64,000 nt of DNA from positions 1 through 64,000 of the IMG/VR virus record IMGVR_UViG_3300022916_000008. The stretch is one strand, 5' to 3'. The notes under the pieces are model-generated. The model worked only from the letters and a program-made list of their open reading frames with translations. It made no database searches and had not been told where the DNA came from. The DNA is from a virus. Made by a program: the position numbers and the translations under genes. Shown piece by piece: positions 3,401 to 39,124 of the stretch. The first letter of the stretch is position 1. Each line of letters begins with the position of its first letter.

Positions 3401-4502
3401 CTTCATGTTGAGTAGTAGTAAATACAGGAGCAACTGTAATACTGTTTGCATACTTCTGATAGTCTATATCTTCAAAGCCTTCTAGGTTCCCAAAACCTAA
3501 CTTGTCATTTAATGTAAAGATGGTCTTAGCCTTCTTATATGGTGCTGTCTGTGCAAGGTAACTCGTTAGTGGAACTGCAGTATCTGTTTCAAAGCCTGAG
3601 AATATCAGGTTTACGGATGATGATGTGATTGCTACCCTATAAAATAGGTACACGCTCTTCACACTATTGATACGAGATATATATCCAACGTTTAAGAATG
3701 AATATCTTTCATCAATATCCGATATTGTTATTGCTACCGACTTAGTTGTTGTTGTCCCTGCTTCGCATCCATCATACTCATACCATTGAACTGAAGACTT
3801 GTCCTCTGTAATAGTTAGTGGTTTTGTTGGTGAACTGTAATTGGTAAGGCTTGTGTTACCATCTTCGTAAGCAGTAAAGAACTGATAAGCTCCTGAAGAC
3901 AATTGCCCCCCAGAATCATTCACTTCGTCTACTGTTATTGTTGGCACATCATACTCAGGATATACATCTATAAGGGTAAGTTCAGATAAGGTATTTGGAA
4001 TAAGTGTGGCAGGATCTACTCCGCCTTTAAAAGGGAGGTTGTCAAGATTAAGTATACGCATATGATTAAGATCATCTGTCCATGATACTATTATCTCTCC
4101 ATTCTTAATCTTTGCCTTTGCTTGTATTTGATGAAACTGTGAGAATCCCATGTCTGCCCTTAACCTATGTTCATAGACTCCATTATTATGAAGTACTCCT
4201 ATAGAGTCAAGAGCGCCTGTTTGGTAGTCCCCCTCTGTGCTTTTTGTCTTTGCCAAGAACAATACATTTCTTGTCTCATCAACATTGACATTTCCTATGC
4301 ATATAAGGTCTGTAGGAAGTGCTGTAGTGGATGTTTCGGTAGTTCCTGTAATAATCTTAGTAATGAATAAACTAAATCCCTCCTCGTTGCTTACAGAGCC
4401 TATAATCTTATCAAAGTTCGCATTAAGCGCATCAACTGGATATGTATCTGGCTGATTAAGCTTCTTTGCATTAAGAAATAAACCTTTACCAACACTCTTC
4501 AT
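459..4502 (-). CDS. P22 gp10-like tail stabilization (muzzle-type) protein
   Basis: This 1347-residue protein is the largest complete one in the window. Its N-terminus (about residues 1-60) has the pattern of crAss-like stabilization proteins: a short leader, then a statement of N-x-N-x-D..G..SNE.GF type (here NANFDKIIGSVSNEEGF). The rest is long, beta-rich and Thr/Ser/Tyr/Asn-rich with no membrane segment, as expected for a large beta-propeller or beta-sandwich virion protein at the distal tail. In related phages this protein closes the tail tube and holds packaged DNA. The ATG overlaps the stop of the upstream tail tube gene by one base (4502), so the two are translationally coupled. Family assignment is from remembered patterns, not a search. 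Confidence 0.65.
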   Translation of the reverse strand: MKSVGKGLFLNAKKLNQPDTYPVDALNANFDKIIGSVSNEEGFSLFITKIITGTTETSTTALPTDLICIGNVNVDETRNVLFLAKTKSTEGDYQTGALDSIGVLHNNGVYEHRLRADMGFSQFHQIQAKAKIKNGEIIVSWTDDLNHMRILNLDNLPFKGGVDPATLIPNTLSELTLIDVYPEYDVPTITVDEVNDSGGQLSSGAYQFFTAYEDGNTSLTNYSSPTKPLTITEDKSSVQWYEYDGCEAGTTTTKSVAITISDIDERYSFLNVGYISRINSVKSVYLFYRVAITSSSVNLIFSGFETDTAVPLTSYLAQTAPYKKAKTIFTLNDKLGFGNLEGFEDIDYQKYANSITVAPVFTTTQHEEYSLTNFKDSVFIINNKGLMPGEVYAVYVGFTLKNGNRTYAYPVPGREVQNITVGGNTFSEDATMRDIISLDPALNYLEADDLIDPGNIKYFHTRDTSNNKTQMCFWENANEKYPELANDPDGNWEVWGFTGVGNETGSVAPSLHGLNVRHHKMPCQTGGWYNETTKTSSVCSIKLENIVIPEEIEIQVEKMHVYIAKRSTNNSTILGQSLYYSDSDNQFAFHSFDMMTNSLPPMASYIENVCLYKFKGRDSSVGGSVFNCYYSMYDITAPVPDVYTTSDNTRIGALKNFIHEDDLLLGEDMHERRYYGEVSVPTVGYPGISKQGRGESYLEPYYYLTNACVYRQDMYSPFQSQELYDTGNDIDIDVLGTYTKTITGGGDVFNTDYAFRTIEDSGSFTPATQGNPTHSERYLYWFPCIATSNIGLRYSDSLSTSSDAAYWPKYGPYASDWAAYLSDDIDTQANIFDYNIDYSAVNDMARAIPTPLVSATTTHFPNRLMVSEASSQEELAENWKNFLVNNYHDMPSTRGEVWNVVNINDELLVNTSRAIFKTIGSKKLQLDEITTYIGSGDLFSLEPQEQAITEDGFAGCTSQWSCKKLPIGYVYVNQELGKIFLYDGKLNDISGNAGIWFKEELPSKLKAQVSISISNPEITFDNNVGGVGIHIEYDQKYNRIIMSKRDVEIKDILKFKGYGTGVLVDGDLGLIEFSSPLDGYYMAHYDASLATWNAIDYSNIYDLDTNPSGLFTDKSWTMTFSLNTKEWRSYHSYIPSMMLRNDKNLMSAIKPTYSLGAKMYKHNTANKYGRYYDQNNPDEFYVEYVINTSVDYTTGQVTSLDTNKLFDAFQWITEVFDSNGTNYYGKTFTKLLIYSENQCSGVIDLSSANVKSTEGTWRFNDFKDIVITYANQIINQDKGIPTGTNASVLTDNTKVITSNINASKRWYEKSFFRGKYIVIRFVYSNSITEQYEIYMHKYDAMLQKSYK

Positions 4503-35060: not shown

Positions 35061-35232
35061 GGGAATATGGTGGAATGGTAGACACGCTACATTAGTAGTT
35101 GAGCAAATAAGGTAGCTCCTTACAAACAGAGAACTTTGACATATAAAGAATGTACGGTCTTTGTGTTGATGAAAGTATCTGAAGACTATAGACAGTAGTT
35201 GCTCAGTTCAGGTTCGAATCCTGATATTCCTA
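35061..35232 (+). ncRNA. Giant-arm tRNA-Leu-like RNA 2
   Basis: Acceptor GGGAATA (35061-35067) pairs with TATTCCT (35225-35231), discriminator A. The D arm is GTG...CAC with a GG loop. The T arm is TCAGG TTCGAAT CCTGA (35208-35224). At the anticodon-arm position is GCTAC-ATTA-GTAGT (35086-35099) with a four-base loop. TTGAGCAA (35099-35106) pairs with TTGCTCAG (35199-35206), one base before the T arm, enclosing ~92 nt. That region holds TAAGG/CCTTA (35108-35122) and AAAGA/TCTTT hairpins. The layout is the same as in RNA 1, and they share TGTTGATGAAARTAT (here 35164-35178). GTAGT occurs again at 35195-35199, so an intron-like alternative pairing exists. Confidence 0.6.
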
Positions 35233-35423: not shown

Positions 35424-35463
35424 AGAATGGTCAGGATATCTTGAAAGAGATTAGTCCTGATAT

Positions 35464-35512
35464 GTGTTCCTGTCAGTTTTTCCATTCAGTCTTTACTGGC
35501 AGGACACTTTTT
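35464..35512 (+). terminator. Terminator-like hairpin
   Basis: GTGTTCCTGTCAGT (35464-35477) pairs with ACTGGCAGGACAC (35495-35507) across an 18-base loop and is followed by TTTTT. One bulged base. Preceding TCAGGA/TCCTGA pairs (about 35430-35460) form a second helix. Confidence 0.6.
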
Positions 35513-35525
35513 ATCATAAAGACTA

Positions 35526-35643
35526 AAGACATACTCTCATGTAGTCGATTACCCGAATCATTAAGACCTTGAGAGTACTTACGGCTTCTAAGATATGGTT
35601 TAAAAACAAATCGCTTTTGTTCGCTATGTCTTGGAAGCTTTTT
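35526..35643 (+). ncRNA. Leader with competing terminator and antiterminator pairings
   Basis: GCTTCTAAGATAT (35584-35596) pairs with ATGTCTTGGAAGC (35626-35638) and is followed by five T, giving a terminator hairpin whose loop holds a nested AACAAA/TTTGTT helix (35605-35621). Upstream, AAGACATA (35526-35533) is exactly complementary to TATGTCTT (35625-35632), which is part of the terminator's 3' strand. Forming one excludes the other. TACTCTCA (35532-35539) pairs with TGAGAGTA (35570-35577). This is riboswitch- or attenuator-like and lies just before the 753-residue gene. The ligand, if any, is unknown. Confidence 0.45.
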
Positions 35644-35675
35644 ATAATCACAATTAATACTGTAAATTAAAGACA

Positions 35676-37955: not shown

Positions 37956-38399
37956 ATGAGTACAGAAGTAAGTAAAGACAGAATGTCTTGGATCAAAGCT
38001 GTAGCAGCTTTATTCGAAATTAGTAAGCAAGGATTAGCAAAGAAGTTTCAAGCTGATCTTAAAAAGACTTGGGAAAAGAATTTGAAAACAAGGAAGAAAG
38101 AACTTGTGCAGATGAATGACCAGAAGGCTGATGAGCTGGAGGACATGAACACTCAGCTTGAAGAACTTATGGAGCAAAGAGACAATAAGTTTATTGCTGT
38201 AGATGTAGATCGCATCGGAAGTTTGGAAGAGAGAAAGGCGTATATCATAGACTTTAACCGGGCTATTGATAGAGCAATGGATGCCGTTGTAGCACAAGAA
38301 GAGGCTATTGAAGAGTATCTGTCAAACATGGATACTCGTATCAAAGACAAGCAACGTGAGATTGATCATTTCACAAATAAGCTTGAGATGATTAAGTAA
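37956..38399 (+). CDS. Coiled-coil protein
   Basis: The 147-residue, highly charged helical protein has heptad-like stretches through residues 20-75 (LKKTWEKNLKTRKKELVQMN) and 90-147 (YIIDFNRAIDRAMDAVVAQE). No other domain. It begins 18 bp after the repeat protein and may partner with it. Confidence 0.6.
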   Translation: MSTEVSKDRMSWIKAVAALFEISKQGLAKKFQADLKKTWEKNLKTRKKELVQMNDQKADELEDMNTQLEELMEQRDNKFIAVDVDRIGSLEERKAYIIDFNRAIDRAMDAVVAQEEAIEEYLSNMDTRIKDKQREIDHFTNKLEMIK

Positions 38400-38408
38400 T
38401 GTATTGGG

Positions 38409-38467
38409 AGATGTGTAGCTCAGTTGGTAGAGCTTTTAGGTCGTGGGTTCAAGTCCCACCACATCTA
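38409..38467 (+). ncRNA. tRNA-like RNA lacking an anticodon arm
   Basis: Acceptor AGATGTG (38409-38415) pairs with CACATCT (38460-38466), then A. D arm GCTC-AGTTGGTA-GAGC (38418-38433) and T arm GTGGG-TTCAAGT-CCCAC (38443-38459) are perfect. Between D and T arms are nine bases (TTTTAGGTC) where a tRNA has ~23, so the anticodon stem-loop is missing. AGGTC looks like a normal variable loop. The RNA would be 59 nt. It sits between two genes on the same strand and could serve as an RNA-processing tag or decoy, or be a deletion relic. Confidence 0.65.
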
Positions 38468-38485: not shown

Positions 38486-39124
38486 ATGAATAAAGTAAAA
38501 ACGTATCTACAAGGAGTAAATCAAAAGACCCTTGTAAAAGTAGACCTACATCCTGGGTATCTTCCGATATACTCACCAGATCGTAGAGTAGAGCTTCCAG
38601 AAGGAGCATTTGTTGAAATGATTAGGCTATACAAGCGTGGCGCAAATGATGATAAGTTTCATATTGTCATTAGCTTTCCTTGGGACACTAAACTCCAAAG
38701 GACTTGTCAATACATCATAAGACCTACTAAGTACAAGCCAGTAACAATACCATTGGTTGTAAAAGAATTGGAAGCTGTATTTAATTTCGAACACAAAACT
38801 GTTACAGGAGACAGGGTAGAAGTATATCCTGAGTTCATTAAAAAGGTATTGACACAAGAAGAATTAAAGTATGCCTTCAAGAAGCGTGTACATGATGATG
38901 TCAATCCCAAGTTAATCAAATGGTGGACTATGTGGAAAGCATTATTTACATCCTATGAAGTACATCAGGTATATCAAAGAACTACTTATTACATTCAGGC
39001 TTATGGAACCAATCCTGTAGCTGCTGTACCGGAGTATCCTGTATATGTCAATACAGATGTGTCAGAACCCAAAGAGGTTACTAAAATAGAAATTAGAAAG
39101 AGAGTACGAGTATTTGGAATATAA
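38486..39124 (+). CDS. Unknown 212-residue protein
   Basis: Mixed alpha/beta, basic C-terminus (KEVTKIEIRKRVRVFGI). The middle has a YQRTTYYIQAYGTNPVAAVP segment rich in aromatic residues. No motif recognised. It follows the armless tRNA-like RNA by 18 bp and has the leader AATAAAAGACG. Confidence 0.55.
   Translation: MNKVKTYLQGVNQKTLVKVDLHPGYLPIYSPDRRVELPEGAFVEMIRLYKRGANDDKFHIVISFPWDTKLQRTCQYIIRPTKYKPVTIPLVVKELEAVFNFEHKTVTGDRVEVYPEFIKKVLTQEELKYAFKKRVHDDVNPKLIKWWTMWKALFTSYEVHQVYQRTTYYIQAYGTNPVAAVPEYPVYVNTDVSEPKEVTKIEIRKRVRVFGI

Follow-up and report, generated by a model that had tools for sequence, protein, structure and literature searches.

The window (the whole 64,000-nt stretch analysed, positions 1 to 64,000 of IMG/VR record IMGVR_UViG_3300022916_000008) is part of a tailed-phage contig of 90.9 kb. 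The left arm of this record carried the terminase, portal, and capsid genes, and the right arm carried the DUF6371, RadC, PcfJ, RecD2-like, and RecA genes; the gene content points to a Bacteroidota host. A 59-nt armless tRNA-like RNA, including the discriminator A38467, was located at 38409–38467 on the plus strand, between two ORFs of the same strand. The upstream ORF (37956–38399, +; 147 aa) was coiled-coil-like, gave no family over the cut-off, and stopped 9 nt before the element. The downstream ORF (38486–39124, +; 212 aa, no function assigned) started with an ATG 18 nt past it.

Read directly, the element consisted of the acceptor 5′ strand AGATGTG (38409–38415), the bases TA, the D arm GCTC-AGTTGGTA-GAGC with G18 and G19 (38418–38433; stem 38418–38421/38430–38433), the 9-nt linker TTTTAGGTC in place of the anticodon arm (38434–38442), the T arm GTGGG-TTCAAGT-CCCAC (38443–38459; stem 38443–38447/38455–38459), and the acceptor 3′ strand CACATCT with the discriminator A (38460–38467; strand 38460–38466), followed by CAAAT with no encoded CCA. 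In canonical tRNA, about 23 nt join the D and T arms. The sequence-only reading had described perfect acceptor, D, and T helices joined by nine bases instead, and this was borne out, with no mismatch in the 7-bp acceptor, 4-bp D, and 5-bp T helices. Its view that the element is a tRNA-like RNA without an anticodon arm also held, given a full-length match to the Rfam tRNA model RF00005 (51.5 bits, gathering threshold 29, E = 3.9 × 10−8 for the whole window) and the exact three-way fold obtained with RNAfold (−20.2 kcal/mol, z −3.2, 68% of the ensemble). When the element was tested as a canonical tRNA, the acceptor, D, and T arms were present over the Rfam threshold and an anticodon arm with a 7-nt loop was absent. 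ARAGORN called no tRNA on the window, at 38409–38467 or elsewhere. The linker, judged by its bases, is not arbitrary; it parses as position 26, three further bases, and an ordinary variable loop 44–48 (AGGTC) in which C48 is retained.

A second tRNA-like of the window phage was found by Rfam and folding at 35061–35232 (+). Its acceptor, D, and T arms were intact, its anticodon arm was a 5-bp stem with a 4-nt loop (35086–35099), and its variable arm, which carries several hairpins, was expanded to some 100 nt (z −2.5). A group I intron in this stretch was unsupported; the predicted fold is that of a mini anticodon arm and an expanded variable arm. The 90.9-kb record contained no canonical tRNA and no tRNA-like other than these two, and thus, with one mini-arm and one missing arm, both tRNA-likes of the phage are without a usable anticodon. 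A search for wider relatives of the phage found only one near-identical contig (L005/L279, flanks 96–99% identical). The locus there was checked for a full tRNA, as would be expected if the window copy were an isolated deletion, and it held the short form too, with the element unchanged; the stretch corresponding to 35061–35232 was also identical in this sole close relative. In the window, the GOLLD and ROOL models of Rfam gave no match at the gathering threshold, no tmRNA was detected by ARAGORN or Rfam, and no structured RNA lay beside the element (upstream stem, p 0.98). In addition, the intergenic stretch 35424–35675 (+) had a very stable predicted fold (−69.6 kcal/mol, z −4.95, no shuffle as good) and no Rfam match at the gathering threshold; from its folding, it may be a noncoding RNA of the phage with a terminator-like stem at its end.

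The same armless form was found by BLAST in the cultured Polaribacter phages Danklef_1–5, where both the acceptor stem and the neighbouring genes differ from those of the window. It is the element annotated as tRNA-OTHER (Undet_NNN) in MT732458–MT732462 and is the same as the armless class described below. The Danklef phage paper counts it as one tRNA, in passages that do not mention the missing arm (PMC8776804). Pattern scans were performed over the IMG/VR viral contigs, which may be partial, and 84,980 prokaryotic genomes. The patterns fixed the D-arm and T-loop letters and left the acceptor, the outer T stem, and the linker free, and the resulting class, ascertained via one D-arm type, comprised 80 distinct sequences with a linker of 8–12 nt and a paired T stem. 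Conservation of the D and T loops was not used as evidence because the search patterns demanded those letters. The named hosts of the paired-acceptor copies included Lacticaseibacillus, Lactobacillus, Weissella, Streptococcus, Corynebacterium, Microbacterium, Oleispira, Oxalobacter, and Pseudodonghicola. BLAST matches in Enterococcus, Acinetobacter, Xanthomonas, Synechococcus, and Nocardia phages were full-length tRNAs or sequence without an armless element.

The acceptor stem, which the scans had left free, was paired at six or seven of its seven positions in 56 of the 80 sequences and at all seven in 48. The mean number of acceptor pairs was 5.91, compared with 3.19 when the 3′ strands were swapped among sequences (maximum 3.66 in 1000 shuffles, which ignore phylogeny, with sequences drawn from many unrelated contigs). 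Several pair types occurred at every acceptor position. Furthermore, L052 and L068 had upstream flanks that were 93% identical and acceptors that differed at several positions with the pairing maintained, and compensated acceptor changes were also seen in the Microbacterium-type group L035/L059/L064. The commonest linker was 8 nt long with the consensus CTTGGGTC (C-T-T-G-G-G-T/G-C). Its last base, C48, was present in all 33 of the 8-nt linkers and in 70 of the 80 sequences overall, which indicates that the 15–48 Levitt pair, and hence the tertiary core, is preserved. Moreover, the armless element was the sole tRNA-like gene in 19 of the 34 records searched, so it is not mere debris of a tRNA array. 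From these sequence comparisons, the armless tRNA-like is considered a real kind of RNA, found in dozens of unrelated phages, with a shape under clear selection. A recent or isolated deletion, which had been proposed from the window sequence, was not in agreement with the recurrence in Danklef or with the co-varying acceptors of dozens of unrelated contigs; recurrence and covariation together also spoke against an assembly error, which was rejected.

The features that usually serve charging were variable. Encoded CCA was found in 6 of 57 armless and 34 of 96 full-length elements among the matches listed, a comparison confounded by the host mix, and the discriminator was C or T in 19 of the 57 armless elements. 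Given the rare CCA and the C or T discriminators, selection for charging does not seem to be present. G3–U70 occurred in 4 of the 56 members of the paired-acceptor class, the window element having A3–U70, and no common aminoacyl identity was found across the class. A tmRNA has a reduced D arm, the alanine identity pair G3–U70, and an mRNA domain. The armless class resembles the tRNA-like domain of tmRNA in its acceptor and T arm without an anticodon, but these three features are not typical of it. A tmRNA mimic or a single aminoacylation identity was rejected because the acceptor, the discriminator, and the 3–70 pair were too variable.

Some copies lay directly 3′ of a longer noncoding RNA. 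In a Streptococcus porci prophage, the armless tRNA began 3 nt past the end of GOLLD, and in the S. suis phage Javan565 a homologous full-length tRNA lay 8 nt past GOLLD; the comparison indicates that the tRNA body was kept and the anticodon arm was not. In a Lactobacillus xujianguonis prophage, ROOL was flanked 5′ by a full tRNA (2 nt away) and 3′ by an armless element, which overlapped the Rfam 3′ end of ROOL by 10 nt. This placement was therefore seen for GOLLD (L048/L113) and ROOL (L015/L128), but not in the window. In G035, ROOL lay 2 kb downstream of the armless element. No tRNA was found within 1.5 kb of ROOL at five ROOL loci from 148 Lactobacillales genomes; ROOL accordingly needs none, and ROOL dependence was ruled out. 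A stem abutting the element upstream (3′ arm ending at most 12 nt before it) was found at p ≤ 0.02 in 10 of 51 loci, where 1 was expected. However, the same was true of 60 of 492 full-length phage tRNAs, so the enrichment does not distinguish armless from full-length elements, and a specific tie to structured upstream RNA was rejected although the count was above chance. At L074, an 18-bp stem enclosing about 80 nt ended 1 nt before the armless element. In the Microbacterium-type phages L035 and L059, a 15-bp GC-rich hairpin and then ACCA stood directly before the armless tRNA. The Lactobacillales-type prophages L052, L068, and L106 carried tandem RNAs about 270 nt upstream of it, namely a possible D-armless tRNA-like, a hairpin, and a roughly 70-nt RNA closed by TGTGCTGT/ACAGCACA, the last of which adjoins the armless tRNA.

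The genes 3′ of the armless elements often coded for terminase subunits and HNH nucleases, and in other cases for DNA polymerase, exonuclease, and capsid proteins; the upstream genes were often late regulators. The distance from the element to the next gene ranged from 13 to over 500 nt, the start codon lying 18 nt past it in the window and 13 nt past it in Danklef. Compared with the sister species Freya, the Danklef cassette of ORF, terminator-like hairpin, and armless tRNA was replaced by another ORF, and the homology resumed at most a few bases away from where the tRNA ends 3′ (L003 5587–6060 vs L285 799–1170). The Freya phages, which have no armless element, kept the downstream gene, indicating that the element is dispensable there.

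By analogy with known substrates, the armless element may be a dedicated tRNA-shaped cleavage module for RNase P and RNase Z, a reading that we favour tentatively. The parts kept, the acceptor–T coaxial stack and the D/T elbow, are those that the two enzymes read, and the part shed, the anticodon arm, serves only decoding on the ribosome. The element would be transcribed within a phage operon, and a host RNase P cut at its 5′ end would give the RNA upstream its 3′ end. At the other end of the element, a cut by RNase Z or other nucleases would probably free the downstream RNA. The upstream RNA is a large structured one in some phages (GOLLD, ROOL, or the unnamed stem-closed RNAs), and in the window and Danklef the element lies between two same-strand genes. 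That RNase P/Z cleave the element, and that this cleavage is what benefits the phage, are what we infer here. A processing tag had already been suggested by the sequence-only reading; the copies abutting GOLLD and ROOL and the weakly conserved 3′ end speak for the tag, while the cutting itself is its predicted part. RNase P alone would also tolerate loss of the D arm, and the retention of the whole core counts against the processing module. So do the window locus with no structured RNA at its side, the upstream stems shared with full-length phage tRNAs, the five ROOL loci with no tRNA nearby, the distant ROOL of G035, and the Freya phages that do without the element. The module is favoured because the parts that RNase P and RNase Z read are retained, the CCA and discriminator are relaxed, and the RNase P literature is in agreement. 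Besides tRNA precursors, the bacterial enzyme processes tmRNA, 4.5S, OLE RNA, mRNAs, and RNAs induced by phage, and its human counterpart cuts substrates without an anticodon stem-loop (PMC4919922). Furthermore, mascRNA, which is not aminoacylated, is recognised by RNase P and RNase Z via the elbow (PMC11693755).

Many copies, that of the window included, have no structured RNA as a neighbour, which leaves room for a mimic or decoy acting in trans, a reading we hold possible though doubtful. A processed RNA of about 60 nt might accumulate and occupy acceptor- or elbow-binding enzymes; the candidate targets would be RNase P, the CCA-adding enzyme, EF-Tu, and tRNA-modifying or tRNA-attacking defence proteins. 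Such a mimic might also be immune to anticodon nucleases, which we regard with similar reserve. The complete elbow and core and the records in which the element is the sole tRNA-like gene are consistent with this. However, a single enzyme bound at the 3′ end fits poorly with the free variation of acceptor and discriminator and the rarity of encoded CCA, and the tight intergenic placement in the window offers no obvious route to high copy besides processing. In a wider form of the idea, which we would not rate any higher, phages repeatedly evolved or exchanged a distinct anticodon-free tRNA class whose mature RNA, about 60 nt long, targets tRNA enzymes of the host or tRNA-directed defences in trans, and the punctuation beside GOLLD, ROOL, or other RNAs would be secondary. 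It is unlikely that the element is a cis-acting leader or stability element that works by its fold, uncut, for the downstream gene. The close start codons in the window and Danklef would suit a leader, as would the terminase small or large subunit or HNH genes within a few kb downstream in several other phages, but the wide range of distances to the next gene, the different downstream genes, and the Freya phages with the gene and without the element do not.

It is improbable that the element is a tRNA gene in decay or a product of faulty assembly: the S. porci copy clearly descends from a full tRNA of the Javan565 kind, and partly shortened arms with linkers of 16–21 nt do occur, but the compensated acceptors, the dominant 8-nt linker, and its invariant C48 oppose decay, as does the recurrence in cultured Danklef genomes and in bacterial isolate genomes. 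More improbable still is an attP copied from a host tRNA gene. Copies of this kind usually preserve the 3′ half of the tRNA rather than a complete self-paired body that lacks the anticodon arm. Integrase was not one of the gene families that recurred next to the other armless elements, the window proteins tested included none recognised as an integrase, and the only match of the S. porci element elsewhere in its host genome was partial (22 nt, inside the T-arm region). Partial tRNA genes are, nevertheless, known to arise through integration (PMC9897764), and an armless tRNA-like of Lactococcus P335-type phages (Rfam 37.8 bits, altered D stem) lay beside an integrase. A general attP origin was thus rejected and retained for the P335 phages alone, where the element is probably attP. 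Like the class, the P335 copy has the armless shape and a paired acceptor; unlike it, it is near an integrase and its D stem is shifted. These unannotated copies (L265 190–270, L266 about 3740–3785, and L267 2868–2928; ul36, bIL309, TP712, and others) sit between the lysin and the integrase or the genome end. A YrlA-like RNA was not favoured either, since the TROVE protein was absent from the Bacteroidota genomes tested (L115, L119, L125, and L136), whose different D/T element folds differently. In Spirosoma and Larkinella (L125 7320–7430, L115, L119, L127, L136, and L140), this D-arm/T-arm element had an unpaired acceptor and stood beside a T-arm-like hairpin.

Among known systems, the mascRNA and menRNA (the 3′ elements of MALAT1 and MEN-beta and substrates of RNase P/Z) also have a tRNA-like body without a functional anticodon and with the elbow kept, and they share the position at the 3′ end of a long noncoding RNA with the GOLLD and ROOL cases. 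They differ in that the phage element has no anticodon arm at all, has a full D arm and variable-loop core, and often lies between protein genes, with its cleavage a prediction. To our knowledge, no function has been assigned to GOLLD and ROOL. Both are often found near tRNA islands (PMC12286853), and the tRNAs of such phage islands were described as ordinary, or as a pseudo-tRNA within GOLLD (PMC6582537). The armless elements share this neighbourhood but are distinguished by the armless form, the abutment, and the compensatory changes, for which no earlier account was found. No description of anticodon-armless tRNAs as a phage class was found in a literature search (most subscription journals and preprints being outside its scope), and the armless tRNA-like is apparently an undescribed kind of RNA. 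As tRNA finders reject such genes or file them as undetermined, a recurring phage RNA class has escaped notice. As RNase P modules, the elements would offer a way to learn how GOLLD and ROOL acquire their 3′ ends and would be a bacterial counterpart of MALAT1/mascRNA; as RNAs acting in trans, they would amount to a small weapon aimed at the tRNA enzymes or defences of the host. Either reading can be tested with the cultured Danklef phage and at the Streptococcus GOLLD locus.

In a control scan with longer gaps, tRNA-likes with a linker of 16–21 nt and no canonical anticodon stem were found among the matches listed, whereas with a 23-nt gap the normal anticodon stem was present in 93 of 95 of those listed. 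The former included, among the matches listed, L146, L155, L161, L197, L205, L210, L262, and others, with acceptor and T stems intact. Encoded CCA was rare in these phage tRNA-likes, again among the matches listed. They are a second mode of anticodon loss, possibly more numerous than the armless one, and by its sequence the 35061–35232 element of the window is placed in this wider set with shrunken arms. In L277, a 150-nt Rfam tRNA match (270–419) was located in a phage tRNA island near ROOL, and it may be another tRNA-like with an expanded arm.
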